Positions 17,294 to 39,000 of a stretch of DNA of 41,065 nt are shown here, in pieces (the first letter of the stretch is position 1; the number at the start of each line of letters is the position of its first letter). Below the pieces are notes generated by a model that worked only from the letters and a program-made list of their open reading frames with translations, did no database searches and had not been told where the DNA came from. Source of the stretch: an uncultured Coriobacteriaceae bacterium. Lineage in GTDB: Bacteria > Actinomycetota > Coriobacteriia > Coriobacteriales > Atopobiaceae. The stretch lies in contig CACXDP010000288.1 of assembly GCA_902766445.1 (NCBI GenBank), positions 1 to 41,065 on the forward strand, written 5' to 3'. Made by a program: the position numbers and the translations under genes.

Positions 17294-17572
17294 CTATGAT
17301 GGTGGCGCCAGCTGCGGCGTGACGCGTCGAGTGAGCGAATCGGCGTCATCGAAGTTGACCAGCACGTGCGGGGCAACGCCGAGTCCTGCGGCGATGCGTT
17401 CCACCATGTCGTAGGTGGGACTTGCTGCAGCGGTCTCTAGCTTACGTAGGTATGTCCTGCTGATGCCTATCATCAGCGAGAACTTACGTGTAGAGAGACC
17501 CTGCTCAACGCGCAGCGATCGAATGCGCTCTGCGAGCTCGGAGCGGTGCGAAGTATAGTCTGTGTGTTCCAT
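17294..17572 (-). CDS. XRE-family HTH transcriptional regulator
   Basis: This small protein of 92 residues is essentially a lone HTH_3 domain: RSELAERIRSLRVEQGLSTR, then LMIGISRTYLRKLE (recognition helix region) and PTYDMVERIAAGLGVAPHVL. I choose ATG 17572; GTG 17578 in frame is possible, and neither has a clear ribosome binding site. It is divergent from the lipoprotein gene at 17834 and convergent with the TPM gene. A dyad-symmetric 18-bp motif lies 34 bases upstream of its start and recurs before two other units downstream, making this protein the obvious candidate to bind it; that is inference. Confidence 0.88.
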   Translation of the reverse strand: MEHTDYTSHRSELAERIRSLRVEQGLSTRKFSLMIGISRTYLRKLETAAASPTYDMVERIAAGLGVAPHVLVNFDDADSLTRRVTPQLAPPS

Positions 17573-17605
17573 GCCCACGATGCTAGACTCATGAAGTCAT
17601 GAAGA

Positions 17606-17627
17606 GGGAAACTAAAGTGTGCCATAT
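17606..17627 (+). promoter_or_regulatory. Candidate operator, copy A (GG-N3-ACWAWAGT-N3-CC)
   Basis: This copy reads GG-GAA-ACTAAAGT-GTG-CC followed by ATAT. It lies between the divergent XRE gene and the lipoprotein gene. It shares 22 aligned positions with copies at 18831 and 25308 and has partial two-fold symmetry, as expected for a dimeric HTH regulator. Confidence 0.55.
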
Positions 17628-17663
17628 GCTCAAGGATGCCACATGCGGCATACGTTCGATTTT

Positions 17664-17730
17664 GCTGAATTAGCTGAATTAGTTTTCAGATATTTGCGCT
17701 ACGACTATAACCCGGACTATCTCAGACTAT
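17664..17730. repeat. Short direct repeats in the xre-lipoprotein intergenic region
   Basis: A 9-bp unit GCTGAATTA is repeated in tandem at 17664-17681. Downstream, GACTAT occurs three times, at 17703-17708, 17715-17720 and 17725-17730. The region is AT-richer than its surroundings. These could be regulator half-sites or slippage products. A TATTAT-like -10 for the lipoprotein may lie near 17780, but no -35 is clear. Confidence 0.45.
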
Positions 17731-17833
17731 ATCTCGGTGAACGGTGAGTGGTTTTGTGGGTGACCTCATGGCGTTTGGTTATTATAGTTGTATGGATATG
17801 GCCTAGGAATGGGTTGAAGTGAGGGGGACAGTT

Positions 17834-18727
17834 ATGCGTAAGGAAAAAATCGGGGCAGTAATGGGAAGCGCGATGCTCGTGATGTCGTTGCTTGGAGGGT
17901 GCGGAGCGCCGTCCGATCCTGCAGCGGTACAGGATAATGCGCCAGCGGTACAGACGATACCGGATCCGACGAATGCGGCTGAGCTTTACGAGCGGTATAT
18001 GGCAAACGAGAATCACGACAACTACCACATGAGCATGACGTTCGACATGGGTATGACGATGGTGGGCGAGGAAATAAAGACGACAATGGTTGAGGAGGTA
18101 GACACTGCCGGCAACGGAGCTCATGGCACAATAAAGGCGTTGGCGAACGACGAAACAACGGAGACGGAACTCTACGTTGCAGAGGAGGACGGGTCGTATG
18201 CTGCGTATGTCAAGGAACCTGAAACCGACACTTGGATGAGACAGGAATACGGATACGCTAGTCCCACAGATGTGGATTCGCTTTTTGGGGACGAAGGTAA
18301 GTACGCTGACGCCGAGTTCGAGAAGACCGATGATGGCTATTTGGTGACGATTAGTGGTCTCGGTGCAGAGGAGTTGTCCTCGCAGCTTGGCTCTCTCGAT
18401 TCTCTCGGCACGGACGTAGCCGATGCAGTCCAGGACGCATTCAAGAATACAACAATGGTCGTCGAGTTCGACAAGGATTGCCTGCCAAGAAAGGCGAGTT
18501 TTGGGGTGAACATCCCTCTCGAGGATACGAGTGTGGGATCTCTCATCTCGAACATTGCCTATGACATGACGATGAAGATGGACTCCTACGGGACAATCGA
18601 CCCCGAGTCCGTTGCCCTTCCTGAAAGTATCAAGAAGTCGGCGGTAGTCTCGGATGCGACGACGGAACCGCAGCTGCCCTTAAGCGAGAACGACAAAGGA
18701 GTCGCTAGCGACGGCAAAGACAACTAA
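17834..18727 (+). CDS. Secreted lipoprotein, function unknown
   Basis: ATG 17834 follows AGGGGGACAGTT; GTG 17819 in frame is less likely. The 297-residue protein has a lipoprotein signal (MRKEKIGAVMGSAMLVMS, then LLGGC) and a Thr/Met-rich β-rich body with alternating patterns such as YHMSMTFDMGMTM and TTMVVEFDKDCLPRK. This style is seen in LolA/LppX-like or DUF6612-type lipoproteins, but I do not firmly recognise a family. The last 30 residues are hydrophilic and probably disordered. It likely sits on the outer face of the membrane. Candidate operator A lies upstream and it is closed by a hairpin at 18765. Confidence 0.82.
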   Translation: MRKEKIGAVMGSAMLVMSLLGGCGAPSDPAAVQDNAPAVQTIPDPTNAAELYERYMANENHDNYHMSMTFDMGMTMVGEEIKTTMVEEVDTAGNGAHGTIKALANDETTETELYVAEEDGSYAAYVKEPETDTWMRQEYGYASPTDVDSLFGDEGKYADAEFEKTDDGYLVTISGLGAEELSSQLGSLDSLGTDVADAVQDAFKNTTMVVEFDKDCLPRKASFGVNIPLEDTSVGSLISNIAYDMTMKMDSYGTIDPESVALPESIKKSAVVSDATTEPQLPLSENDKGVASDGKDN

Positions 18728-18764
18728 GAGCGCTAAAAGCAATTCTCAAACTAATAACGCCATC

Positions 18765-18791
18765 CATCGGCGCGCTTTTGGCGCGCCGATG
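18765..18791. terminator. 11-bp hairpin downstream of the lipoprotein
   Basis: CATCGGCGCGC (18765-18775) pairs perfectly with GCGCGCCGATG (18781-18791) across a TTTTG loop. There is no following T-run, so it is a hairpin with probable termination or RNA-stabilising effect rather than a textbook intrinsic terminator. Confidence 0.6.
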
Positions 18792-18830
18792 CGCTTAAGA
18801 AACGGCCTGTGGGCGAACGTGGACCAAAGT

Positions 18831-18852
18831 GGATAACAATAGTGTCCCACTT
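18831..18852 (+). promoter_or_regulatory. Candidate operator, copy B (GG-N3-ACWAWAGT-N3-CC)
   Basis: This copy reads GG-ATA-ACAATAGT-GTC-CC followed by ACTT. It ends 15 bases before ATG 18868, which has GAGAGGAG as its ribosome binding site. A bound protein would therefore overlap the start of the propeller-kinase-FHA operon. Confidence 0.55.
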
Positions 18853-18867
18853 ATGAGAGAGGAGCTC

Positions 18868-18957
18868 ATGGATGGTGACGTTTACTTCATCGATTGTGAC
18901 CTGCAGCAGACTCTCAAGATAAGCGGCCTCGAGTCGTATACGGGAGAGGGTAAGTAG
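18868..18957 (+). CDS. Short ORF: leader peptide or frameshifted start of the propeller gene
   Basis: ATG 18868 has a strong site (GAGAGGAGCTC) and encodes 29 residues beginning MDGDVYFIDCDLQQTLKISG, then stops at TAG 18955. The long propeller frame downstream (+1 relative to this one) is open from 18923, just after a stop at 18920-18922, and reads RIRERVSSAITVNAV before its first GTG. That first GTG has no ribosome binding site. A single-base indel near 18930-18950 would join the two into one protein. Either this is the true N-terminus broken by a frameshift (real or a sequence error), or it is a translated leader coupling into the long frame. Confidence 0.5.
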   Translation: MDGDVYFIDCDLQQTLKISGLESYTGEGK

Positions 18958-18967
18958 CGCGATTACG

Positions 18968-21823
18968 GTGAATGCCGTGGCGCTTGGCGCTGTCACCGTA
19001 TGTGTTGGAGATATCACCAATGATGGCAAAATCGCGGGTGGACGCTTGTATTTGGCGGCCGCCTGCGGTTTTCTATCATCAGAACGTGCGGATGGCATGG
19101 CCGACGATGAGTATGGGAGGATGGCGGCCAAGGGCCATGTAGTTTGGAGGCAGGTCGTGGCGGTGGTTGCTGACAAGCTCGATGGACTTCCTATCGTGCG
19201 CCAAGCTCGGCGGCGGTGGCTTTTGATGGGAGTTGTGGTGGGAGCGGCAGTTGCGTGCGCGTTGTGCGTGGCTGTGGTCGCTTGCCAGAATTACCCGCGT
19301 CCGGAGGAGGAGACCGCGCGTCAGGTGCTTGCAAGCGAGTCGGAGCTCTTGGCGGCCGAGGCAGAAGATCTTCTGGGTCGGGGTGACGTGGATCAGGCGG
19401 TGCAGGTTGCAATGAGCGCTTTACCCAAAGGTGCCGACGATAACGATGTCCCCTTCGTTCCCGCTGCGCAGATGGCGTTGGAAGATGCGCTGGGCGTCTA
19501 TCCAAAAGACGGCGTGTGGGCACCGAGCTTCTTCTCACGTTATAGACTGCAACAGAAAGGGTGTGCGTACAGCGATTCTGGGTTGCTCGCGGCCTTCGAT
19601 CGTGCGGGCAACGCGGTGATATGCGATGTGGACGAAGGGGTACAGAAGGCGCTCATAGACATATCGGCCAAGGGCAAGGAAGCTGCGGCATCGAACGGCA
19701 AGAAACAGCTGTGCTTTGTGGGCGAGAGAATCGTTTGTGCCGGATGTGGCACCGTCTCATGCTACGAGATTGAGGATGGCAGCCAACTCTGGAATCTGGA
19801 GATGGGAGATGGCTCCTCGTTGGCTGCGTGTGCTGTGTCATCCGATGCGAAGACACTTGCGATACTCGCACGTCCTACGGGTAGTGTTCCCGCACTCAAT
19901 GTGATTGACGTGGACACAGGCGAGTTACGAAAAACCGAGCTGTCAGGATTTGAGAAGCGAAATGATGGCGCTGATAGCATAGCGGTTGCCTTCGATGAGA
20001 GCGGTTCGCGTGTTGCATGTGGCATTGATGGTGTCATGGTCGTTGTGAACCTTGCGGATGGGAGTATGGCACAAGCGTCTTTGGGGTTGCCATTGGCCGA
20101 GGACGTTGGCTTTTTTGGCGATGAGGTTATGGCGGTGTCTGCGGACTCTTCCGGAGTTAAAGCGTGCGCGCAAGCGTTTGGCTCGGACCTCAGTGAATTG
20201 TGGTCACATGAGGACGAGGGTGTGAACGGATTCGATGCAGATGGCATGATGCTTGCGTCACGGACCTGCATCTGTGGACAGCAGGGATTCGGTAAAGAGC
20301 CGTTGGTCTTCACGATCTTGCAAGGTGTTTTGGTGGGGTTGGACCCCCTTTCAGGCACGGAATCCTATCGACTTGAGCGCGACGCACCTATCATCGATTG
20401 CTTCTTCCAGCATGGAGGCGAGACCGATTCAGGTGCTACGGATGTTCTTCTGGCTGTGTCGAGTGCAGGCGAGGTGCTCATACGAACGCTTCAGGATAAA
20501 CAAGACAAAGGTTCTGCGAATGCCTACGACACTCGTCTCGGCGATACCACCGACGCGCGTTTTGTGCTACAAGATGGCGTATTGCATCTCGTGATGTGGT
20601 GTACAAATCCAGATAAGTGTCGGTCATACGTATTTGGTGGGCGTGGCATGATGCTCGACGAAGGGCAGGTTGCTGGCTTGCTCGATGCTGGTGCGTCATA
20701 TCGCTGGAGCGGTGATTGCCGCGTTGCGATGACGGATTCGGAGATTCTCTTGCTTGACGAGGCCTCGCTCGACCCGGTACTGCGCATTGACCTCTCTGCG
20801 CTCCCAAAGCTCGATCATTCCAAGGAAATGGAAGTTTGCTCATCAAAGGATGAGGTCCTGTATGTCTACGGTGCGCAGAAAGATGATGGGGCGGGGGGCA
20901 TAGCCGTCTACAAAGTCAGTACACGCGACGGTTCTGTCCTGGGTGAGTTTCCCCTTCGCGGCTTGGATTCGTCCTTTTTTGGCGATGGGGACATCAAGGA
21001 GCGGAGTACAAGGTCTGGTGAGAGATGTCTCTTGGCGTTCGATTCGTCAACGCTCCGAGTGCTTGATGCAGACGACGGAACAGTACTGCAGGACGTGTCC
21101 GTCGATGGAGGCATAGAGGCTGCATACCTTGTGGGTGACGTGCTGCTCGTATATCGCAGAGCCGATTCGCTCGATGTTGGGAGCTTCGAGACGTTTGACG
21201 TGACTAGCGGTGATCCTTTGGACGTGGGCATAGGATCCTATGCCGTTTGGGACGATAACAAGAGATACATAGCGGTGGATGAGGGTGCCGAGCAAGTGGC
21301 AATTGGCTGCTCGGATGGCGTTGTACGACTGTTTGACATAAGCAACCAGTCGATGTTGTGGGAGTCTTCGGAGATTACCCTCGGGATACGAGCCCTGTAT
21401 ATAGTGCCCGATAGTGGTCGCGTGCTGCTGCAGGACGAGCATGGGCATCTTATGCTGCTTTCCGGTGCGGATGGTAGTGTGCTTGCGGCATCCTCTGCGA
21501 TTGTGCCTCCCCTCGACTGGTTTAGTAAGATAGACAAAGGGGATACGTGTATCGGCTACTACAAGAACCCCGGCTTGGCTCAGAACACTGGTATCGTGGT
21601 CATCTCGACAGCCAATGAGGAGTTTGGACCAGTGAGTACCATACGCTACGGCATGTTCGCCAATGCGGATGCATCGCGCGTGGCTATCTGGGACGTGTTT
21701 CGCGACCAACCTGTGATTGCCCGCAGGCTCACGCTTGACCAGCTGCTGGAGATGGGGGAAATCATCGCTCAGTCGCGACCACTCAATGACATGGAGTGTC
21801 TTGTCTATAAGACGCATAGATAG
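18968..21823 (+). CDS. Membrane-anchored WD40/PQQ-like propeller protein
   Basis: This 951-residue frame starts at GTG 18968, without a ribosome binding site; the true start may be ATG 18868 through a frameshift. Residues 1-82 are a cytoplasmic region I do not recognise. Residues 84-106 are a membrane helix after ARRRW. Residues about 115-165 form a helical linker (SESELLAAEAEDLLGRGD, then AVQVAMSALP and VPFVPAAQMALEDAL), like the linker that in TIR- or kinase-linked WD40 proteins joins the membrane helix to the propeller. The remainder has repeated blades such as VIDVDTGELRKTEL, VLDADDGTVLQD, VRLFDISNQSMLWES and LSGADGSVLAAS. The propeller is predicted outside. It is followed after eight bases by the kinase gene. 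Confidence 0.78.
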   Translation: MNAVALGAVTVCVGDITNDGKIAGGRLYLAAACGFLSSERADGMADDEYGRMAAKGHVVWRQVVAVVADKLDGLPIVRQARRRWLLMGVVVGAAVACALCVAVVACQNYPRPEEETARQVLASESELLAAEAEDLLGRGDVDQAVQVAMSALPKGADDNDVPFVPAAQMALEDALGVYPKDGVWAPSFFSRYRLQQKGCAYSDSGLLAAFDRAGNAVICDVDEGVQKALIDISAKGKEAAASNGKKQLCFVGERIVCAGCGTVSCYEIEDGSQLWNLEMGDGSSLAACAVSSDAKTLAILARPTGSVPALNVIDVDTGELRKTELSGFEKRNDGADSIAVAFDESGSRVACGIDGVMVVVNLADGSMAQASLGLPLAEDVGFFGDEVMAVSADSSGVKACAQAFGSDLSELWSHEDEGVNGFDADGMMLASRTCICGQQGFGKEPLVFTILQGVLVGLDPLSGTESYRLERDAPIIDCFFQHGGETDSGATDVLLAVSSAGEVLIRTLQDKQDKGSANAYDTRLGDTTDARFVLQDGVLHLVMWCTNPDKCRSYVFGGRGMMLDEGQVAGLLDAGASYRWSGDCRVAMTDSEILLLDEASLDPVLRIDLSALPKLDHSKEMEVCSSKDEVLYVYGAQKDDGAGGIAVYKVSTRDGSVLGEFPLRGLDSSFFGDGDIKERSTRSGERCLLAFDSSTLRVLDADDGTVLQDVSVDGGIEAAYLVGDVLLVYRRADSLDVGSFETFDVTSGDPLDVGIGSYAVWDDNKRYIAVDEGAEQVAIGCSDGVVRLFDISNQSMLWESSEITLGIRALYIVPDSGRVLLQDEHGHLMLLSGADGSVLAASSAIVPPLDWFSKIDKGDTCIGYYKNPGLAQNTGIVVISTANEEFGPVSTIRYGMFANADASRVAIWDVFRDQPVIARRLTLDQLLEMGEIIAQSRPLNDMECLVYKTHR

Positions 21824-21831
21824 GAAATCGC

Positions 21832-23763
21832 ATGTTTTCCGTCGAGGATGTATGGACGCAATGGCAAACGCAGGAGCGCTTAGGTGAGGGAGCGTTTGGT
21901 ACCGTGTGGCGTGTCATATGCTCAAAAGGGGGGCGTGATGCGGTTGCTGCTGTAAAGCTTATCGAGATACATCGCGATGATGCCGAGTTCGTGGCATTGC
22001 GGGACATGGGTCTTGGGGATAGCGATACCGACGGGATGGTTGAGGCGCGCGCGATGGATGTGCTGTCCGAGATTGAGGCGATGGATGCGCTCAAGGATTG
22101 TCCGCACATCGTACGTATAGAAGACTATCGTTTGGTGGAGCTCCCCGAAGGTGCGGGGTATGCCATTGCAATTCGGATGGAGTTGCTGACGTCTTTGCCG
22201 GATTACGTACGTGCGGCTGGTGCTCTCTCTCGTGCGGAGGTTGTGCGCATGGGCATAGAGCTGTGTCGTGCGCTCGAGGCATGTCACAACAAGGGGTTCA
22301 TCCATCGAGACGTCAAGCCCTCGAATGTGTTTGTGGGGCCTGACGGTAGGTATAAGCTAGGAGACTTTGGTATCGCGCGAAGGCTTGAGCGAGAGACGGC
22401 CCAGACTATGACGCGCAAGGGAACTGGCCCTTACATGGCTCCCGAAGTGTACTTCGGCGAGCGGTATGCCGCTGATATAGACATCTATTCGCTGGGCATC
22501 GTGCTCTATCGCTATCTAAACGGGTTGCGGTTTCCGTTTCTTCCGTTGGCTCCGGCCCCGATTGGAAGTCGCGACATGGAGTCGGCGGAACGTCGAAGGC
22601 TGCGGGGCGAAGAGATGCCTTTGCCTGCTGAAGCGGGTGAGGAGCTGGGTCTCATCGTATGCCGGGCATGTGCATATGATTCAGCGCGTCGATACGCGGG
22701 AGCGGCTGACTTGCGGGAGGATTTGGAGAAGTGGCTCGATTCGCACGGGACAGAAGCTGAAGGCCGTGTGCATGTCGGAGATTTCGATGAGAGGCCAGAT
22801 AAGGCGGACCCCGGCTCCTCGTTGGTTGAGGCTCTCTCTGGCAGATTGTCTCGGAGGAGATTTGTAGGCGCCTGCATCGGATTGGGGCTTGCCGCATCAG
22901 TGGGCTTCGTCTCGGCATTGCGCCACTCGCTCGGTTCGCGTGGGGATGATTCTCACAAGTTTGTGGACATCTCTGCCGGCGACTACCATAGCGTTGCTGT
23001 GCGGGCTGATGGAACTGTCATTGCCTGTGGCAATAACGGTTCTGGTCAGTGCGAGGTGGATGCGTGGAACGATATCGTAGCAGTAGCCGCAGGTGCCGCC
23101 CATACTGTTGGTCTATGTGCGGACGGCACGGTCGTGGCTTGCGGAGAAAACAGGTTCGGGCAGTGTGACGTGTTTGGATGGAAGGACGTTACGTCCATTG
23201 CGGCAGGCCATTCTCATACGGTTGCGCTGTGTAAGGATGGGGCGGTGGTCGCGTGTGGCAACAACGAGTCTGGCCAGTGTGAGGTGACGTCTTGGGCAAA
23301 TGTCTCGTCGTTGGCAGCAGGTGCATCGCACACGGTTGGCCTGTGTGCGGATGGTACGGTGGCTGCTTGTGGCGGCGACAGGGAAGGACAGCTCGACGTG
23401 TCCGGTTGGGCTGACGTGAGGGCGGTCTCGGCGGGGCCAACGCATACGGTGGCGCTTCTCGCGGATGGGTCGCTGGTATCGACGGGAACGGGCTACTTTT
23501 GTGGCATGGTTGGCATGGCACGTCTTTCCAGCGTGGTAGCCGTCTCGACCGGGGCGTGTGGAACAGCTGCGACTCTTTCGGACGGTACCGTAGTGATTGT
23601 CGGTTCGATGAGACGCGAGGCTGAGGCGAATGATCTGCGTGCTTGGCGTGGCGCCAAAGTGATAGGCGTCGGGGATGAGCATATGATTGGAGTCAATCCG
23701 GATGGCATTGTGGTAGCCATGGGTTCTAATGCATATGGCCAGTGTGAGGTGGGCGTATGGTAG
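21832..23763 (+). CDS. Transmembrane Ser/Thr protein kinase with RCC1-like outer domain
   Basis: This 643-residue Hanks-type kinase has the P-loop GEGAFGTV at 18-25, catalytic Lys42 (AVK), HRDVKPSN at 158-165, DFG at 178-180 and APE at 203-205. All key catalytic residues are present. A hydrophobic helix at about 344-363 (FVGACIGLGLAASVGFVSAL) follows the kinase and a juxtamembrane linker. Residues about 373-643 contain some seven RCC1-like repeats of the type AGDYHSVAVRADGTVIACG and GQCEV, predicted to fold as a seven-bladed propeller outside the cell. PASTA-type kinases share this topology but use PASTA rather than RCC1 as the outer sensor. ATAGGAAAT precedes the ATG. The FHA gene overlaps its 3' end. 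Confidence 0.93.
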   Translation: MFSVEDVWTQWQTQERLGEGAFGTVWRVICSKGGRDAVAAVKLIEIHRDDAEFVALRDMGLGDSDTDGMVEARAMDVLSEIEAMDALKDCPHIVRIEDYRLVELPEGAGYAIAIRMELLTSLPDYVRAAGALSRAEVVRMGIELCRALEACHNKGFIHRDVKPSNVFVGPDGRYKLGDFGIARRLERETAQTMTRKGTGPYMAPEVYFGERYAADIDIYSLGIVLYRYLNGLRFPFLPLAPAPIGSRDMESAERRRLRGEEMPLPAEAGEELGLIVCRACAYDSARRYAGAADLREDLEKWLDSHGTEAEGRVHVGDFDERPDKADPGSSLVEALSGRLSRRRFVGACIGLGLAASVGFVSALRHSLGSRGDDSHKFVDISAGDYHSVAVRADGTVIACGNNGSGQCEVDAWNDIVAVAAGAAHTVGLCADGTVVACGENRFGQCDVFGWKDVTSIAAGHSHTVALCKDGAVVACGNNESGQCEVTSWANVSSLAAGASHTVGLCADGTVAACGGDREGQLDVSGWADVRAVSAGPTHTVALLADGSLVSTGTGYFCGMVGMARLSSVVAVSTGACGTAATLSDGTVVIVGSMRREAEANDLRAWRGAKVIGVGDEHMIGVNPDGIVVAMGSNAYGQCEVGVW

Positions 23764-25070
23764 TTTCGACGACAACAAAGATCGTGAGGAGTGCCATGCC
23801 GAGAAGAGAGACGCAAACCAAGGCGAAGGCATTTGCGTTCGTGATGGATCAGCTCGCGTGGATTGGCGATGACTTACTGGTCGATGCCAATGGTGGGCGT
23901 CCACTTGGCGGATCGAGACCGTCAAAGCTCGCGTTTTGGTCGTGGCTGTTTCCTGAGATTGGAAACGATGCAGCTAAGCGGAGTCGCCTTCAAGCGGGAA
24001 AGCGCCCCGAGGAGCTGCTTCAGATTGTGGGACGACCTGATGGCAAGGGCATGGAAGGTATGGCCAATGCCAAGTTGAGCCTTGATGTGCTCGCTTCGTT
24101 TGACTTGGCTTGTGTGTTGGGATGGCGCATGCGCTGCGAGGATGGTCCCTTTGAGGAGTTGTTTTCCTCGGACGCTCATTTTGCGAAACGCTTTGATGGG
24201 GAGGCAATCGACACGTTTTTGCGTCTGCTCAATGATGATTTCGCTGGTTGCCAACCTTACAGCTTCGAAGGCCTTCAGGATGCGATTACGGCGGTTCGCT
24301 TGGGCATCTCGCGTGCAGAGGAGGGGTGCGTGTGTTCGTGGCGCATGGACTTCGAGCGCTATGCTGGCTATCTGGTACGGAAGCATCGTGTTGGTGGAAA
24401 GAAGCAGGACTGGCGCGCCGACCTCGCAACGCTTCTTTTGATGTCGGCACTCCTTGGTCCTAAAGACTGGCGCGCCGATCTGCTTATCGATACGCCAGAG
24501 AAGCATGAGAGCACTGCCGATTATGACTCGCAGTTTGCGGTATCAGCTGATAAGGTGCGGAGTGGGGGAGTCGCACGCAAGCTCGACGTGCGAAGCCGAT
24601 TCTTCCTCACGCGCGTGACCTTCGATTGCGACCCACCTGACGAGATGGACTGGTTCATCTGCGAAGGCGATATCGGTGGGGTAAACAGTGGTAGGGGACA
24701 GTTGCTTGCCATCCCGCTTGACGGCAAGACAAGGGTTGTGATGGCCCGAGGTCTCCCGAGATTCAGCGACGTTGGCGAGAGCGTGGAGGTGCCTCTAAAC
24801 TGCCGCGATGCCTCATCGAAAGCGCATCTTGCGCTCGCTCTGGAGGGCGGCGAGTGGTTGGCGCGTGACCTCGGGTCGACTAATGGTACGCTTGTCGTGA
24901 GCCGCGATGGGATGCGCCGGATGCTGTGGCGCAAGGAGGCGGGTGGTGATCAGGCCGTCATCCTTCGCAATGGGGATGTGATATGCATTGCGCCGAATCA
25001 CCATACTGGCCATGCGGTTCCCACTAACCCCGCATTCCTGTTTCATGCCGTTACCAATACGTGGTTCTAA
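23757..25070 (+). CDS. FHA-domain protein, probable partner of the kinase
   Basis: ATG 23757 overlaps the kinase stop by seven bases and is preceded by GTGAGGTGGG inside the kinase gene, so the two are translationally coupled. The 437-residue protein has an unrecognised, largely helical N-terminal two-thirds (Trp-rich segments such as FAFVMDQLAWIGDDLLVD and KLAFWSWLFPEIGND). A C-terminal FHA domain lies at about residues 343-420: DASSKAHLAL, WLARDLGSTNGTLV and LRNGDVICIAP. FHA domains bind phosphothreonine, so it is likely to read autophosphorylated kinase or its substrates. In this domain the usual first Arg/Ser pair is NCRDASSKAH, consistent with binding. No membrane segment is seen. Confidence 0.88.
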   Translation: MVVSTTTKIVRSAMPRRETQTKAKAFAFVMDQLAWIGDDLLVDANGGRPLGGSRPSKLAFWSWLFPEIGNDAAKRSRLQAGKRPEELLQIVGRPDGKGMEGMANAKLSLDVLASFDLACVLGWRMRCEDGPFEELFSSDAHFAKRFDGEAIDTFLRLLNDDFAGCQPYSFEGLQDAITAVRLGISRAEEGCVCSWRMDFERYAGYLVRKHRVGGKKQDWRADLATLLLMSALLGPKDWRADLLIDTPEKHESTADYDSQFAVSADKVRSGGVARKLDVRSRFFLTRVTFDCDPPDEMDWFICEGDIGGVNSGRGQLLAIPLDGKTRVVMARGLPRFSDVGESVEVPLNCRDASSKAHLALALEGGEWLARDLGSTNGTLVVSRDGMRRMLWRKEAGGDQAVILRNGDVICIAPNHHTGHAVPTNPAFLFHAVTNTWF

Positions 25071-25223
25071 GGGCCATTACCAGGTTCCCTGCGTGATTTA
25101 ACTGCGAGCGTCTCAATGCATGAGACGAGGGAAGGTGGTTGTACAAGTGCTCATATACCCGTGCGATAGCATGTTTTCAGGTCCAACCGACGAGGACAAA
25201 AGGACATCGACGGGGGTGAGGCA

Positions 25224-25289
25224 ATGAAGTCGAAGACAAAGAACTGCTGGCTTACACTGTGGCGAATCGTTTGCCTATCTAAGGAGTGA
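25224..25289 (+). CDS. Possible small ORF, 21 residues
   Basis: ATG 25224 is preceded by GGGGGTGAGG. The product begins MKSKTKNCWLTLWRIVCLSK and ends with Glu; it is short, basic and Trp/Cys-rich with a hydrophobic middle. No family is recognised. The close, partly overlapping ribosome binding site and tiny length make chance likely. Confidence 0.2.
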   Translation: MKSKTKNCWLTLWRIVCLSKE

Positions 25290-25307
25290 GGCCACATACC
25301 GATGAAT

Positions 25308-25329
25308 GGGTAACTATAGTGTTCCATAT
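25308..25329 (+). promoter_or_regulatory. Candidate operator, copy C (GG-N3-ACWAWAGT-N3-CC)
   Basis: This copy reads GG-GTA-ACTATAGT-GTT-CC followed by ATAT. The core ACTATAGT is a perfect 8-bp palindrome. It is the best-conserved of the three copies and lies 75 bases before ATG 25405. Confidence 0.55.
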
Positions 25330-25404: not shown

Positions 25405-26820
25405 ATGAGAGTTAAGTTCCTTGCTGCCATAACGTTCGCATTTGCGCTTGTATGCGAATGCGTCTCTGGGGGAGCGGCACCTACAAAGGCGTTTGCTGCG
25501 TCCTCGCGGTCAAATAACGCGGTTGAGGCGCCAGATTATGAGTACACGATTGAAAAGGAGGCTTCTTTCTCTGGCGAGGAGGATGATCTGACTTTCGACA
25601 ATGGCGCGGCCATACTCGTGGACGGAGACTCGTATTACCTCATTGGACCTGATGGAAAGCAAATCATCAAGAACGAGGAAATCATTGGTGTCGAAAGCGT
25701 TGGGGATGGCTATTACATCGTAATCGTCAAAGACGGCAAGGACGAGGTAAACAAAACGGGTCTTGTCGACAAGAAGGGAAAAGTGCTCATTCCGTTTGAT
25801 GCGGCGTTCATCAAGTATACCACTGACGATCCCAAGGATGCCATGTTCCTAGAGGTGGGTTATGCGATGGAGGAGACAACAGACAAAAGCCAGTGCTTTG
25901 TCTATAGTGCGGACAACGACTACTCGCTGGGGCCTGATGAGGACGACACCATGTACAAGGGCTATGGCGAAGTCTTTTCCCTCGATGAGGAGGAGATGGT
26001 CAAGGGGATTCGCATAACGAATGGGTCGAGAACGGCATTCAACGACCTGCAAGACGCATTCACTGTTGAAGATGACGACGATACGACGACCATGTACAAT
26101 GCAAAAGGGAAAAAGCTTTGGGAAAGCCCCGAGAAATCGACGGTTTATATGGCGAAGAATGCCGTCATAGTGAGCTCTTCATCCGGCCAACAGCTCATCG
26201 ACTCGTCAGGGAAGGTAAGCTACGAGACAAAAGGCTACCTTCACGGTTTGAACGGTGATGACAAGCGCTTTACTGAAAAGAACGACGACGAAGTCACGGT
26301 CATTGACATAGAAGGAAAACAGGTGTTGGACAAGTCATATGACAAGGTAACGTATGCCTCGGGTGGCTTGTACGATGTTGGTAGCGGATCTGATGAGGCA
26401 ATTGTCGATGGCAGCGGAAAGGTCGTTGTTGAGTATTCCTCGGGTTATACGCTGAAGGAAGTCGTTCCTGGCTATTGCGTATCACGTGCGAATAATGAAT
26501 ATGTAGTGATTAAGTCCGGCAAACAGATTGTGAGCCTGAAGAATGGAGTTGTCGACAACCTCGTATTTAAGGACGATAGCGACAAGTACTATGTACTCAA
26601 TGACGAGAAGTTCAACTTGGAGATCAGGAGCGTGAGGGAGCTGGCGCCTGCTTTGGCAAGGGCTCGCATGAATGATTCAGCCGGCGTGGGACTCTACGAC
26701 CTCTTCACCGGCAAGCAGCTACTCGAAGACGAGTATGAGGAGATTCACATCGCTGGCGACTATATATATGCATTCGCCGATGGTACTTGGACAACGTATG
26801 AACTAGAGCTCAAGGATTAA
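25405..26820 (+). CDS. Secreted WG/propeller-like protein
   Basis: ATG 25405 has GGAAAGGGG upstream. The 471-residue protein has a Sec signal peptide (MRVKFLAAITFAFALV..., cleavage probably after KAFA). Its mature part is acidic and made of repeated β-hairpin units of the form DxxGKxxLxxxY, for example GLVDKKGKVLIPFDA, VIDIEGKQVLDKSYDKV, IVDGSGKVVVEYSSG and LYDLFTGKQLLEDEY. This pattern resembles WG-containing repeats and suggests a propeller-like fold. It has no lipobox or wall-sorting motif, so it is probably released or held by partners. It follows candidate operator C. The ligand is unknown. Confidence 0.82.
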   Translation: MRVKFLAAITFAFALVCECVSGGAAPTKAFAASSRSNNAVEAPDYEYTIEKEASFSGEEDDLTFDNGAAILVDGDSYYLIGPDGKQIIKNEEIIGVESVGDGYYIVIVKDGKDEVNKTGLVDKKGKVLIPFDAAFIKYTTDDPKDAMFLEVGYAMEETTDKSQCFVYSADNDYSLGPDEDDTMYKGYGEVFSLDEEEMVKGIRITNGSRTAFNDLQDAFTVEDDDDTTTMYNAKGKKLWESPEKSTVYMAKNAVIVSSSSGQQLIDSSGKVSYETKGYLHGLNGDDKRFTEKNDDEVTVIDIEGKQVLDKSYDKVTYASGGLYDVGSGSDEAIVDGSGKVVVEYSSGYTLKEVVPGYCVSRANNEYVVIKSGKQIVSLKNGVVDNLVFKDDSDKYYVLNDEKFNLEIRSVRELAPALARARMNDSAGVGLYDLFTGKQLLEDEYEEIHIAGDYIYAFADGTWTTYELELKD

Positions 26821-26848: not shown

Positions 26849-27526
26849 GTGTATTGTCCATCTTGCGGTATGTCGTTGAAGGACACTGCCAAGTTCTGTC
26901 CCAGCTGTGGAACAGATGTTGAAGGTGAAAGATTTGATGACGCACCAAAGCCGGATTCTGGGGTTGAAGAGCAAGCGAACTCGCAGGTGCAACCTAGTGT
27001 GACACCAGCTGGCCAGGGCGTTCGTTCACGTGAGCAACAACTTGTTGCTGCGTCAGGGAATGGCCTCGGGATGATGTTTTACACGTGTCTAATAAACTTT
27101 GCCTTCTATTGCGTTGCTGTCCTGGCGGTGATCATAGGAATCCTCCTGATTACGGGTCTAATCTATGGCCCGTCCGTATCGCCTGAGTTCGACGCGTATG
27201 CATGGTTTCCCACGCTCAAGGTAACTGACACCCTATCGGGATTCGTATGGCTGGCACTCGCGGCATTATGCGTGTATTGCCGAAACCTCATGGCGCGGTT
27301 TAGCGCCAAAGCAATAAAGATGTACTACGTTTTCGCGGCAGTAGTGCCCATTCCAATAGTCATACGTGAGCTCGGCCGTGCATATTGCGTCGCCGGATTC
27401 TCATCGGCTGAGGGAACCAAAAAGATTATCACTTCATTATTGCTCGGTGCCGTTACCTTTGCAATACTTTATGCAATCGGCAAGGCATACTTCACGAAAC
27501 GCGAGTGGCTGTTTGTCAATCCATAA
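26849..27526 (+). CDS. Zinc-ribbon membrane protein
   Basis: GTG 26849 is preceded by GAGAGAAGGGAAG and opens directly into a zinc ribbon: CPSC at residues 3-6 and CPSC at 17-20. A charged, Gln/Pro-rich linker follows (to about residue 70). Four predicted membrane helices come next, for example CVAVLAVIIGILLITGLI, FVWLALAALCVYC, YVFAAVVPIPIVI and LLLGAVTFAILYAIG. The zinc ribbon would be cytoplasmic. No specific function is recognised. It is 28 bases after the WG-like gene and probably in its operon, ending at a good terminator. Confidence 0.82.
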   Translation: MYCPSCGMSLKDTAKFCPSCGTDVEGERFDDAPKPDSGVEEQANSQVQPSVTPAGQGVRSREQQLVAASGNGLGMMFYTCLINFAFYCVAVLAVIIGILLITGLIYGPSVSPEFDAYAWFPTLKVTDTLSGFVWLALAALCVYCRNLMARFSAKAIKMYYVFAAVVPIPIVIRELGRAYCVAGFSSAEGTKKIITSLLLGAVTFAILYAIGKAYFTKREWLFVNP

Positions 27527-27549
27527 GCGACGGTGAGCGAGATGGCTGG

Positions 27550-27582
27550 CGGGCACTTGTACAAGGTGCCCGTTCGCTTTTT
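27550..27582 (+). terminator. Intrinsic terminator after the zinc-ribbon gene
   Basis: CGGGCAC (27550-27556) pairs with GTGCCCG (27566-27572), enclosing TTGTACAAG, and TTTTT follows at 27578-27582. It is a good intrinsic terminator. The loop shares the CTTGTACAAG core with the terminator at 17260. Confidence 0.85.
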
Positions 27583-27603
27583 CATATATTGAAGGTGAAG
27601 TTC

Positions 27604-28980
27604 ATGGAACGCTGCAGAAGGAAGGGGCCGGTTATGGTGAGGGGCAATTTATGGGTGAGGCGAGCGCTTACGCTCGTGGTTGCGTGCCTGGTGGTTGTGG
27701 GGATGCTCCACGTGCCGGTCTTCGCAGAGGTAGCCGAGGGGAGTGGAATCCAGCCGCAGGGTATGGATGCCGTTGCGCCTTTTGAGGCGGGCGAGCTCGA
27801 TGGGGGGTTGCAAGTGGCGGATGCTGGGGCGGAGTCGGTAGAGGTCGCCGAAGACGCGCTGGATGCCTCAGCGGTAGTGGAGCTTGACGATGCACCTGAG
27901 GCGCAGACTTCCGATGGGGATGACTCTGCGATCGAGGTAGCGGAGCCCAACGCCGTTGAGCCCCTGTCTACAGGCGAGGACGAAGCCGCAGACTCATCGC
28001 AGAGCATCGCCCTCTCGGGGGAGGCCGATGCGCGGAGTACGGCTGACGAGGGCTCCGCGACGAAGAACGCGGCCCCCGGGGCCAAGGCCGCGAAGACCCC
28101 CCACGTCTACTACCGGGTGCACCGCCAGACCTACGGCTGGGAGAGTGGCTGGAAGAAGGACGGGCAGACCTCGGGCACCACGGGCCAGTCCAAGCGTCTC
28201 GAGGGCATCTACATGAAGCTTGGTAACCTCCCCGTCTCGGGGACACTCAAGTACCGCACGCACGTGCAGACCTATGGCTGGGAGTCGGGCTGGAGGTCGT
28301 CGGGACAGCTCTCTGGCACCACGGGTCAGTCCAAGCGGCTCGAGGCCATTCAGATCAAGCTCTCGGGGGCCATGGCGGACCGCTACGACGTGTGGTACCG
28401 CGTCCACGCCCAGACCTTCGGCTGGATGGGATGGGCGAAGAACGGCAGGTGCGCGGGCACGGTGGGCTACTCCAAGCGCCTAGAGGCGATTCAGGTCAGG
28501 CTCGTGAGGAAGGGCGGCCCCGCACCCGGCACTACCGCGAATGCCTTCAGGAAGTACGTGCCGCCAGCAATCTCTCAGAGCTACGTGGGTACGTATGTGC
28601 GTGAGGTGTATCGCGGAGGGACGCCGTACTCGGAAGAATTACCATACTCTATAGCCACTCTCCAAATTCGGTCCGTGTCAGGAAACAAGGTCACGTTCAA
28701 ATACAGCTATTTTAATGTGCGCATGGCCACAGAGCATGAGACAGTATGGATCACTTCCACTGTCAGTAACTCACGTTCGGACTTTCTTTACGAGACGGAT
28801 GACCTGTATGGCTATGAGTATGGGCATGGTTATCTCAGATTCTCGGGCGGAAAGGTGTTCTTGCTTTTGGAATCGGACTACCATCGCTCAGGTGTGCGAT
28901 ACACACTCGATACATATGGCGCAAATGAATCCCATGCAGAATTGGAGATGCATAAGGGCACACAGAGTTTCTATAGCTGA
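27604..28980 (+). CDS. Secreted ChW-repeat protein
   Basis: Two starts are possible: ATG 27604 (458 residues, GAAGGTGA upstream) and ATG 27634 (AAGGAAGGGG upstream). A signal peptide with LTLVVACLVVVGMLHVPVFA is followed by an acidic Ala/Glu/Asp-rich linker. Three ChW (clostridial hydrophobic Trp) repeats then follow, each with HxQTYGWESGW or HAQTFGWMGW, G(T/C)xG, and SKRLEAIQ, ending in a KL or RL pair. The C-terminal 150 residues are an unrecognised β-rich domain containing SYVGTYVREVY. ChW repeats are thought to bind the cell surface. The ChW part uses far more C/G-ending codons than the 3' end, which suggests a mosaic origin. Confidence 0.88.
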   Translation: MERCRRKGPVMVRGNLWVRRALTLVVACLVVVGMLHVPVFAEVAEGSGIQPQGMDAVAPFEAGELDGGLQVADAGAESVEVAEDALDASAVVELDDAPEAQTSDGDDSAIEVAEPNAVEPLSTGEDEAADSSQSIALSGEADARSTADEGSATKNAAPGAKAAKTPHVYYRVHRQTYGWESGWKKDGQTSGTTGQSKRLEGIYMKLGNLPVSGTLKYRTHVQTYGWESGWRSSGQLSGTTGQSKRLEAIQIKLSGAMADRYDVWYRVHAQTFGWMGWAKNGRCAGTVGYSKRLEAIQVRLVRKGGPAPGTTANAFRKYVPPAISQSYVGTYVREVYRGGTPYSEELPYSIATLQIRSVSGNKVTFKYSYFNVRMATEHETVWITSTVSNSRSDFLYETDDLYGYEYGHGYLRFSGGKVFLLLESDYHRSGVRYTLDTYGANESHAELEMHKGTQSFYS

Positions 28981-32953: not shown

Positions 32954-33006
32954 GCGTTGAAGAACAAGATGCAGGTTTTCAGTAAGCGTCGATGGCGGGA
33001 GGGCAT

Positions 33007-36000
33007 ATGGGCCAGAAAAAGCGACACGAGCGACTTATGTCCATGACGCGCTTTCTCAGCATGGTGGTTAGCGTGTCGATGGTCCTGAGCCTCATGCCGA
33101 GTCAGGGACTCGTGTGGGCTCAGCAGGAGGCCACGGAGGTTCGATTAGAAGCGCTTTCGCAAGTTCAAGACAATGCTGGAGAGCTCACGCCCGAGGATGA
33201 GGACGTAAGCGGGGGAACGCCCGCTCAGGCAAAACCTCCGGAGCCAGGGCAGATGGAAGCCAAGCTTGTCTTGCGACTTGAGAATGCCGTACTTACATAT
33301 GACGGTTATGATTTTGACGCCGAGTTCCAGGAGCTCACCGTACCCCTCGATATCGACATGGTCTTTGCCGTGAAGGTAGACGACGGCTACGAGATTGCTC
33401 GGGTAACATACGAGGCCGATGACGATGAGATCGAGCTCACCGCGCGCGAGGCCGGTACCTACTTCATCGCCAAGGACGACCTTAAGGATGGCGCGACGAT
33501 AGCTGTTGCAACCGAGGCCATATCCGAACAAGAGACGGAGCCCGTACCTACTCATACGAAGGACGACGACAAACAACCGGAAAAGTATGCTGCCGAACAG
33601 GTTGAGCCCAGCTCAGTTATAACGACCGACGAGCAGCTCAAGGACGATGAGAAGTCCGCCAACGATGTCGAGGCCGATGTGCAGCCCAAAACAGAGGAGC
33701 AGCCCGCCGACGAGGAGCAACCCGACGTTAAGGTCGAGGCCGATGAGCAGCCCAAAGCAGAGGAGAAGCCCGTCGACGAGGAGAAGCCCAAGGGGGAAGA
33801 GGAGCGCGCCGATAAGACCAAGGATGGCAAAAGGCTTGAAGCCGAGGACGAAGGGCCGCCCGAGGAAGAATCATCGGTGCCCGTCGCCACGAACTCCCGC
33901 GTGCGCGAAATCAGCGATACCCTCAGGGCACAGGGAGCAGAAAGCACCAATCTCGCGAACTTCTTGACGAATGTCTCCCTCTCCGCGCATACCAACGAGC
34001 AGGGACAGTACGTGGTGAAGCCCGGGGAGGACTATACCATTAGGTTGTCGTTTGCAGAGACTAACGGAGGACTGCAGTTCGATAATGACGGTCCCTTGAC
34101 GTATCAGATTCCTGGTGACATCCATGTTGACGAGCAGAGCGGCTCGCTGAACATCAACCTAAAGATCGGTACCAAGACCTACAAGATCCAGAACAATCCC
34201 TACAGCATATCTGAGACGGGGCTCATAACGTTTAACTGGAACATCGACGATCCTAACTATGCAAGGCTGACCGGTGCCTCAAACACGCATTTTGACCTGT
34301 ATTTCGAAGGTGACTTCACAAATGAACGAGACAAGATCGTGTTTTCCGACTCGGTGGAAAAGGATATCCACGTTGACAGATCCAACAGCGTAACAGCCTC
34401 CAAATCGGCGAGTGTCGATAGGATAAACGACAAGCTCTGGTACACCGTGTCCGTACGCTCCAGCGGAAACAGCGTTGATGTAAAGCTGACCGATGTCCTT
34501 ACGGGTACAGGACTCACCCTCGACGCAGATAGCTTTAGCGCGAGCTCAAGCAAGGGAGGGCAGGTTTCTGGCACGACTTCGGTAGATGGCAACAGTTTCG
34601 AGTATACGCTTGGCGACATGTCAGATGGTGAAGTCATCACCGTGAGGTATTCTGCCACCATCGATCCTTCCGTCCTCCAAAAGCTGGAGAATGGCAAAGT
34701 CGTGACGACTACAAACAACTCAGTCAAAGTCGTCAGCCACGATGATCCCGAGAACGAGCCGATCAACGTAAGGCGAGAGATTGATTACACGCCCACCATT
34801 GAAAAGAGCGGTGCCGTCGATGCCGGCACCACGGTGGACGGCAAGAAGATTCTGAAGTGGACGGTGACGTACAACGGCGAAGCCAAGGTGAACGCTAAGA
34901 GTGGCTCCATCACGGACTCAATAAAGGAGTCGTCGCGAAACATCATGACGATGTATGGCGACGGCATCAAGATTACGAAGAAGAACCGCAACGGAGAGAC
35001 CGTGAGCGGTCCGACGGAGGTTGCTTGGGACCAAGGACAGCTGACGAAGCTAGACGAATATTCTTGGCGATACGTGGTGCCAGAGAACGAGGATGGACCA
35101 TACAAGTACATCATCGAGTACGAGACGCAAGTGGATGTCAGCGAGATTGAGCACATCACCGCTGTTGACAATACGGCGACGACAGAAGACCACCAGGAAT
35201 CGACGGGCACTGGCAAAGTAGGCCCAAATCATGACGTCCCTCTGATTAGAAAGAGTGTTGAGAAGATTGACCTTGCGAACAGGGAGGTCACGTGGACCGC
35301 GAGCATCAATGTGCCCAAGGAGGGCCTGACTAAGGCGGTCATCACGGACACCTACCCAACGTCGTTCAACTATGACACCATGCAACGGTGGTACGACGTT
35401 GTCAAGGAAGGCTCCGTTGAGGTGACGGGCCTGGTGGACGGCGAAGACAAGCAGGTTTCGATAGGGGCTACGTCCGCGACGATTACTCTGACCCATAACG
35501 GGCAACCGGGTCTCGCGGCGACTGATTCGTCGCGTGTCGTTACGGTGACGCTCAAGACAAACCTTACCGAAGAGTGGCTCGAGTTCTCAAAGGAGCATAC
35601 AGACAGGCGCACACGCGTCAACAACATCTCGCTTGACTACGGGACTGACACGATCACGGATACAGCGACTGTCGTCGTGGCGGCTCCTGAAGTCAAAAAG
35701 TCAGTACAGCAGATCGGAACCCGTACGGTCAACGGCATCGAACTGCCAATCTATCAGTATGTCATCAAGTTGTTCGGACTCGAAAACGTGCATTCCACAA
35801 TCGAGGATACGTTCGACACGAGTCTTCTTGAGGTGTACAGGAACGCAGCAAACGGTTTCTGGGTATATGTCGGGACTCAATACGAGGGTGATGTAGACAT
35901 TCCCGAGTCAATGGACAGCACGGACCTCTCGCATACTACCGGAGTTCCCTGCACCTACGTTGATACAGCCGATGGCATAACCATCACCACAAACGCTGAT

Positions 36001-39000
36001 GCGCTGAAGAAGGGACATGACGGGAACCCGAATGCGCTGTATCCTATATACGGTATCGTATATTATCTCACCATAAAGGACGCGAGCGCCCTGAACAAGA
36101 TTATGGGCTATGCGGCGCAGAGTGAGAATGGGTATGACCTTACCAATAGTGCAGAGTGGGGAGGCCAGACAGGCATCGGGAAGGTCACGTTTGGGTACGA
36201 GGGTCTCACCAAAGAGCTGCTGACAAGTGAAGAGGAGCTTAGCAAGGTAGACGATGACATCTGGGCAGATTTCCAAATCACGCTGAATCCGGGTGCCCAG
36301 CGTTTGAATGACGGTGACCCACTGGTCATGACCGATAAGGTCGAGGGGTTGAGCGTCGACCTAGCCTCAATCAAGGCAGTGCAGGGCGAGATTCTGTCGT
36401 GTGACATGGATGATGACACTGTGACCTACACGGTTCCTGATGCGACCAAGGTAGTAATCAGGTATCGCGCGAAGGTCGTGTATGACAACATCGGAGAACC
36501 TCACACGACGGTTGACGTACACTTCAAGAACACCGCGACGATGGAAGGCTACAGCGACTACGTCGAGGGAGATGCGCATCGCTACAACAGTGGCGAAGGG
36601 CAAGCAAGCATCCCCGTCATTCATATCCTGAAGTACGAGGCAGGTAACCTTGGGGGCCGACTGAACGGTGCGGTGTTCGAGCTTCTTGACGCTAACAAAC
36701 AGCCCATAACTGACAAATACAATAGGCCGGTGACGGTTACGACTCAGCGTACCAATATGGGAACCGATGAGGAACCGGATTGGCAGGATGGCGTAGCGCG
36801 TGTCCAAGGCGATGAGACGACCTTGGGCTGGAACCTTGAATCCAACACGAACTACTACCTGCATGAGATAACCGCGCCGGACGGTTTCATGCTTGACGAT
36901 TCATACTATGAGTTCATGATCTCCGAATTCGGAGAGACGGACTATACAGCACATCCGCGCATCTACTATTCCGGCGACAACATGACGGTCAAGAACTACC
37001 CGGGAACTGATGTCACAGTCGAGAAAGTCTGGGCGGATGGCAACGAGAATCACGAGAGCGAAGAAGTCACCGCCAAGCTTCAGCAGCGTATAAAGAACAA
37101 CGATGGCGACTGGGGTCCATGGTCCGACACCATCCGCAAGGAAGTCATGCAGGGCGACGAATACGTATGGGTGGATACCACCGAGCCCACGACGATTGTC
37201 CTGAAGAAGGAACAGGACGAGTCTAAAAGCTGGAAGGGTGCATTCTACAGCCTTCCGCTAGATGTGCCAGCGCAATTGCCCGCGACCGAGAGAACCGAAG
37301 ATGTCATCGTTGAATATCGTGTCATAGAGACCAAGGTCGGTAATCGGGAAGTCATCTACGATGGTGATGACTATACCCAAGGCACGTATGATGGAGGGAC
37401 AGCGAGCATAAGCGCGTCCTCGGGGACTGGCGGGACGTATCAGTACACTATCATCAACAGCGTCGAGGAGACCGAGGCGAGCATCGAGGCGAGCAAGATA
37501 CTTGCGCCATGGGTCGATGGCAACGCGTTCGACCTCAGGCTCGTGCCGATGAACGACGCGCCGATGCCTGAGGGGGCGACCGCTGAAGCCTTCTACGACT
37601 TTGGTTCCAACGCGATTCAGACAACCATTCCGACTGTAGTTAAAACAGCTACAAAGTCCGCCCCGGTCGTTGATTTCGGCACGATACACTATGGCGCGAT
37701 TGGCACATACGCGTATACGGTGCAGGAAGTCTTACCCGACGATGCGACGAATGCTTCTGGAGCAACGTGGGGGAGCTTGTTCGAGGCCGGTGCCGTCGAT
37801 ATGCTTCAGGCTGGCAGCTTCAAGAGAAACGGCGTAACTTACGACAAGACCGCTCACCAAGTCATTGTAGTCGTGACCAAAAACGATGATGGCAATCTGG
37901 TTGCTGCGGTGACGTATGAGAACAACAAGGCCACGGCCGAGGTTACCAATACCTATGAGGCCACAGGTTCAATCGATTTCGACGGGTCCAAGACCATGGA
38001 CGGCCGCGACTTCGAGGAGGGCGACGAGTACACCTTCACTGTGTCCGCCGCCGGCGTTCCCATGCCGGAGGAGACCTCGGTGACCATCAGGCCCACGAGC
38101 GGTACCAAGGCCGACTTCACTTTTGGCAAGGTCAACTACGCTCTCGCCGACGCAGGAAATACGTATGAGTACACCGTGACCGAGACTGGTACCGTCGACG
38201 GCGTCGCCATCGACGGCGCGAAGAAGGTCAGGGTGACAGTCGCGGACAACGGTGACGGAACCCTGAGGATTTGCAAGGACGACGATGCTGGCCAGGAAGC
38301 GGTTGCGTCCTTGTCTGCGGACTTCACTAACAGGTTCACACCCGCAGAGGCGAGGATCGAGGCCACTAAGCAGATCAACGACTGGGGCAACGCGACGTCG
38401 TTCACCTTCGTGCTTGAGGCGGATGAGGGTACCCCGATGCCTGAGGGGGCCCGGGACTGCAGGGTCGTCAGGACCGTGACGAAGGACAGCCTGGTCGCCG
38501 ACTTCGGCGAGATCGAATACGCCAAATCTGGCACCTACAGCTACACCATCACCGAAGTTGATGACGGCGTCGACGGGGTCACCTACGACACGACCCCGCA
38601 CGTCGTGGATGTCGTGGTGGCGAGGGACGTGACCACGAACGCGCTGAGCGCTGAGGTGACCTACGACGGAGGAAGGGGTCCCCTTTCCATCGTCAACAGC
38701 AGCTCGTCCTCGAAGGCGAGCCTGTTCGCGACGAAGTCCATAAATAGCTGGGGCAATGCCGGGTCTTTCACCTTCGTACTTGAGGCCGGCAACAACACAA
38801 CCGACGGGGGTGTGGCGACGCCGATGCCCGCAAGCGCGCGGGACGGCAGGGTCGCCAAGACCGTGGCCAAAAACATCCCGACCGCCGACTTCGGCGAGAT
38901 CGAGTACGCTAGATCTGGCACCTACAACTACACCATCACCGAGACAGGCGGCGGCGCGGGCGGCATCACCTACGACAGCGACCCTCACGTCGTGACTGTG

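Follow-up and report, generated by a model that had tools for sequence, protein, structure and literature searches.

The 41,065-nucleotide stretch analysed here (the window), from an uncultured gut bacterium of the Coriobacteriaceae, contains three similar dyad-like sites, one of them next to a gene for a small XRE-type protein. The question raised by this locus is whether the three sites are operators of that protein, and whether the protein thus governs its own gene and two neighbouring operons. A first-pass annotation of the sequence had proposed an autoregulated XRE regulon of envelope genes; we conclude that the motif first seen is real and that the XRE reading is largely right, with the exceptions described below. 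The features discussed are listed in Table 1, and related genomes are designated by G numbers.

Table 1. Positions of genes, candidate operators and promoter-like elements in the window
Feature	Position	Strand	Basis or remark
XRE regulator (HTH_3/HTH_31), 92 aa from ATG 17572	17294..17572	-	Pfam and subfamily profile match
TAGCAT, predicted -10 of leaderless XRE transcript	17580..17585	-	13 nt before ATG; TANNNT position conserved in relatives
Box A, candidate XRE-promoter operator	17606..17623	.	core 17611-17618
Promoter-like GTGACC-17-TATAGT, likely the lipoprotein gene's own, separate from box A	17760..17788	+	sequence match
Lipoprotein-like gene (weak DUF6612)	17834..18727	+	Pfam; 49% orthologue in G014
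Box B, candidate operator before propeller-kinase-FHA operon	18831..18848	.	
34-codon ORF between box B, which it adjoins, and the propeller gene	18853..18957	+	read from sequence
Beta-propeller protein (PQQ_2-like)	18968..21823	+	Pfam; 42% orthologues in G010 and G014
Ser/Thr protein kinase with RCC1 repeats	21832..23763	+	Pfam
Protein with C-terminal FHA domain	23757..25070	+	Pfam
Box C, candidate operator before WG-like operon	25308..25325	.	contains TATAGT 25315-25320
WG-like protein	25405..26820	+	WG repeat only E=0.025, below cut-off; 33% orthologue in G014
Zinc-ribbon protein	26849..27526	+	Pfam
ChW-repeat protein	27505..28980	+	Pfam

Sequence and occurrence of the three boxes

Boxes A, B and C are sites of 18-22 bp, spread over 7.7 kb, which all fit the form GG-N3-ACWAWAGT-N3-CC; their sequences are GGGAAACTAAAGTGTGCC(ATAT), GGATAACAATAGTGTCCC(ACTT) and GGGTAACTATAGTGTTCC(ATAT), respectively. 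The 22-base alignment reported earlier proved correct in sequence and coordinates: 15 of its 22 columns are identical across the three sites, with pairwise identities of 15, 19 and 17 of 22. Among 22-mers drawn from three different intergenic regions of the window (2.35 kb of intergenic DNA), A, B and C form the best triple, and 15 identical columns were reached in none of 1500 dinucleotide-preserving shuffles, in which the maximum was 14, attained 8 times. The dyads are imperfect (6/9, 5/9 and 6/9 paired positions for A, B and C), so that the common direction assigned to the sites in the first-pass annotation means only that they share one asymmetry, AAC to the left and GTGT to the right.

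We observed the exact pattern at 3 places in the 4.07-Mb draft genome, namely A, B and C, all of them intergenic; the claim that the window holds no further copy was therefore borne out and extends to the rest of the draft genome, and the genome scan that had been called for found the pattern confined to intergenic DNA near these genes. In 100 related genomes, the background for the same pattern was about 0.2 places per genome. When the symmetric version GGNACACTATAGTGTNCC was allowed up to 3 mismatches, 8 places were found genome-wide, of which A and C were the top two, while B tied with five others, 4 inside predicted genes and 1 at a contig end. Of the three sites B is the most degenerate, and on its own it does not stand out from a few other genomic places. 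This weakness of B, together with the fact that the motif was defined from the very sites it describes, could suggest a chance resemblance chosen after the fact; given the outcome of the shuffles, and the independent prediction of box A from the promoters of relatives as described below, we regard such an origin as very improbable.

The XRE gene, box A and the promoters of relatives

The 92-aa protein has the HTH_3-type helix-turn-helix domain of XRE/HTH_3 transcription factors (Pfam HTH_31, 1.5e-11, and HTH_3, 3e-11, both above cut-off). Box A had been described as a site in the promoter of the lipoprotein gene, an assignment that we do not retain: the box is 33 nt before the XRE start, with its core at -46, but about 211 bp separate it from the lipoprotein ATG, and the promoter-like TATAGT lies in that interval (about one match of the GTGACC-17-TATAGT type is expected by chance). 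We therefore assign box A to the XRE promoter. On the + strand (17613-17673), a -10-like hexamer in box A also lies 13 nt before the ATG of a 15-codon ORF.

We compared 22 XRE promoters, that of the window and those of 21 relatives, using a strict dyad definition; the relatives' promoters were read without reference to boxes B and C. The closest six homologues in the genus are 65-49% identical to the window XRE; a further one occurs in Olsenella intestinalis, and other families of the order contain more distant homologues. Matches in the XRE profile search came from Olsenella intestinalis and from uncultured Atopobiaceae/Coriobacteriales MAGs, several of them from rumen or sheep gut. A search of the literature on this XRE group in Coriobacteriia found nothing relevant. 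Many of the genus relatives end in a short acidic tail, E(Y/F/W)(D/G/R)G, which the window XRE (17294-17572) does not have.

A ACTATAGT-type core dyad was present 45-48 nt before the start codon in 19 of the 22 promoters, and such a dyad appeared in only 0-2 of 400 shuffles per promoter. The hexamer TANNNT occurs 12-15 nt before the ATG in most of these genes, and in 14 of the 15 promoters having both features it is separated from the core by 33 nt (32 in the remaining one). The window promoter follows this order-wide pattern, with TAGCAT at -13 and 33 nt downstream of the start of the core. So short a distance between TANNNT and ATG predicts that the XRE transcripts of the group are leaderless or nearly so. 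The dyad would then be centred near -41.5 from the predicted start, with the box lying over the -35 region; inspection by eye revealed no -35 consensus at these promoters. The 22 sequences do not amount to 22 independent events, since many of them are related, but the flanks vary around a constant core and position, which argues against mere common descent.

The boxes themselves are of several kinds. In G007 the box is a perfect 18-bp palindrome, TGCGCACTATAGTGCGCA, whose core precedes the ATG by 45 nt. Two dyads, 23 bp apart, occur in G010 and at one of the G004 copies, while the other G004 copy, like the window promoter, has one. The box is GTACCACTTTAGTGGTAC in O. intestinalis and mostly [CT]GTAAACTATAGTTTACG in the more distant families, and only degenerate boxes were found in G008 and G006, 2 of the 8 nearest homologues. 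In 14 order-level genomes searched with up to 2 mismatches, the operator occurs at the XRE gene; three of these genomes have one further 2-mismatch place. Elsewhere in G008, GGTTGACTATAGTCAACC and GGTTGACTATAAGTAACC (L111:6923-7033, G008:C71) precede a more distant XRE gene; they show the same core with other flanks and are nearer to the canonical C-box. In G004, a tandem TGTGCACTATAATATGCACTATAATAC (L112:3055-3092, G004:C52) lies in the interval that separates the gene of a LytTR-type response regulator from a divergent gene. It is a possible extra target of the G004 XRE proteins, whose own boxes are GTGCACTATAATGCAC, and extra targets may thus have arisen more than once.

In the aggregate, XRE relatives at genus, family and order level agree in the core of the dyad and in how far it lies from the start of the gene, and box A fits this geometry. 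The autoregulation proposed in the first-pass annotation is well supported by these comparisons, and the window XRE gene is likely to be autoregulated through box A.

Recognition helices and operator flanks

Recognition-helix residues and operator flanks appear to vary together, as judged by eye from a small table: SRTYLRK (window, G008) is paired with GGCAC half-sites, SRRYLIK with TGYGC, SR[KQ]YLID with TGTAA, and SKTHLAN with GTACC. A matrix built from the relatives' XRE boxes, flanks included, placed A only 54th, B 305th and C 124th in the window and was rejected as a site finder; because the flanks are not the same from one XRE protein to the next, the family signal is carried by the core only. 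The GG flanks of box A recur in B and C, an agreement that points to the XRE of the window itself. In G008, whose XRE has a recognition helix identical to that of the window XRE, a site GGCACACTATAGTGGTAC (L200:6673-6690, G008:C105) with one half a perfect GGCACACTATAGT occurs upstream of a gene and may be due to chance; the protein encoded downstream starts MCTGIRFADKNGNMYFGRNLDW and looks choloylglycine-hydrolase-like by eye.

Boxes B and C at their operons

In most relatives the XRE operator is single and located at the XRE gene itself; moreover, at B and C we did not find TANNNT at the 33-nt spacing, unlike at the XRE promoters, and the genome encodes other, weaker XRE homologues. By these observations, box A could be the only operator of the window XRE, with B and C bound by another regulator or by an XRE paralogue recognising a similar core. 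We consider this unlikely, because the GG flanks, a feature that varies from one XRE protein to another, are common to A, B and C, and because no additional copies exist genome-wide. As B and C share the flanks of A and the boxes occur nowhere else in the genome, control of both operons by the window XRE is the simplest reading.

Each box also contains a -10-like hexamer on the + strand, located 13 nt before an ATG in A and B. Possibly, then, a shared sigma factor recognises the boxes as core promoter elements, with TATAGT, TAAAGT or TAGTGT as -10 in conserved surroundings. Such elements would be expected to recur genome-wide, yet there are three copies only; A, B and C share no -35, and the perfect palindromes of relatives point to a dimeric binder. 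We accordingly judge a sigma-factor origin very unlikely. A sigma-B/F-type reading, with GGGWAA as -10, was abandoned because no -35 accompanied it.

For control by the XRE protein, the direction of its action at B and C depends on the same hexamers. TAGTGT (18840-18845) inside box B is 13 nt before ATG 18853 of the 34-codon ORF, and TATAGT (25315) is inside box C; if these served as -10 elements, bound XRE would repress, and this is the weakest step of the argument. Since the boxes overlap a possible -10 or abut a start codon, we lean towards repression or a roadblock at B and C. C.Kpn2I, a C-protein that serves as an elongation roadblock (PMC6237814), is a precedent by which sites downstream of a transcript start are also possible.

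Conservation of the gene cluster

The genes for the lipoprotein, propeller, kinase-RCC1, FHA, WG-like and ChW proteins are conserved as a set. The window's gene set recurs in a different order in G014 (L057:7634-19439, G014:C34), with an additional 356-aa lipoprotein-like gene before the propeller gene, and seems to be a conserved module for signalling and the cell surface; in G010, the propeller, kinase and FHA genes are kept and the contig ends there. The ACTATAGT dyad was absent from the cluster promoters of these two same-genus genomes, neither cluster was found to have a close XRE homologue next to it, and a search of the G014 cluster for another shared motif gave only a triple of 12/22, which is chance level. 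The idea that the box is kept at orthologous operons thus did not hold for G010, whose operon is boxless despite an XRE homologue in the genome, although that XRE is at another locus and its orthology is uncertain. With neither box nor adjacent XRE at the G010 and G014 clusters, the putative link of B and C to the XRE would be lineage-specific at best, and boxes at the cluster are known from one genome. At the same time, that the box is missing where no XRE gene adjoins the cluster speaks for the XRE as its binder. Further along the window (32992-41065), an ORF for a surface protein of >2691 aa, with nine FctA isopeptide-type stretches and one SpaA domain, runs off the contig end.

Comparison with known regulators

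The controller (C) proteins of type II restriction-modification (R-M) systems (C.Esp1396I, C.AhdI, C.Csp231I) resemble the window XRE in being small HTH proteins with an operator in their own promoter. Their operator is a TATA-centred quasi-palindrome of consensus GACTTATAGTC (PMC4321490), close to the ACTATAGT core of the window and its relatives; leaderless transcripts, probable for the window XRE, are common among them (PMC4824078); and Esp1396I, with one protein and three operators (PMC4041747), parallels the three candidate sites here. RTY in the recognition helix of the window XRE can be compared with T36-Y37 of C.Esp1396I. In contrast, C-proteins are linked to R-M systems, whereas Pfam scans of the main window ORFs found no restriction or methyltransferase gene near the XRE gene. 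Adjoining OL/OR dyads before the C gene have no counterpart in the single dyad of the window XRE or in its relatives, most of whose promoters hold one dyad and two of which have pairs spaced 23 bp apart, and the candidate targets, a kinase-FHA operon and surface-protein genes, are unlike those of C-proteins. Among solved structures, the DNA-binding domain matched SinR best (1.9e-10; C.AhdI, 1.7e-6). Lacking R-M linkage and adjoining OL/OR dyads, and closer in sequence to SinR, the window XRE is not classed as a C-protein. It also differs from SinR, as neither a SinI-like antagonist nor a C-terminal oligomerisation domain was recognised here, and the SinR recognition sequence differs from the window boxes. 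The lone XREs of the order (G007, G010, G288, Olsenella intestinalis and others) have the same promoter architecture and ACTATAGT-type core, but other flanks, and their operator is usually present once per genome, as against three copies in the window genome.

Proposed regulation and its meaning

From sequence comparisons, we consider it probable that A, B and C are operators of the 92-aa XRE, A being autoregulatory and B and C placing both operons under the same protein. An XRE dimer would bind the quasi-palindrome through the ACTATAGT-type core and GG...CC flanks. The geometry of box A, centred near -41.5 of the predicted leaderless start and over the -35 region, is as observed, and autoregulation would follow from it. 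Class II activators and -35-blocking repressors both use such a placement, so that regulation could go either way: with no recognisable -35, the XRE may activate its own promoter at low level and then repress it, as C-proteins do, or simply repress it. Through B and C, the propeller-kinase-FHA operon and the WG-like/zinc-ribbon/ChW operon would join a three-site local regulon, as suggested by the identity of the sites and the lack of other copies. Of the XRE-controlled regulon first proposed, the motif, autoregulation and, as the simplest reading, control through B and C stand; the lipoprotein assignment and the conservation of the regulon do not.

More tentatively, and with somewhat less than even confidence, we suggest that the window XRE belongs to a family of XRE proteins spread across the order, which are lone, leaderless and self-regulating, with a C-box-like operator and no R-M system, and that it was recruited here to kinase-FHA and surface-protein genes by the gain of two operators. 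The XRE/three-box system offers a testable regulator-operator pair with conserved geometry, the dyad core being 33 nt before the -10, and this geometry could help to locate the targets of unannotated XRE proteins across the order. With one site in relatives and three here, it would also represent a small case of the birth of a regulon.
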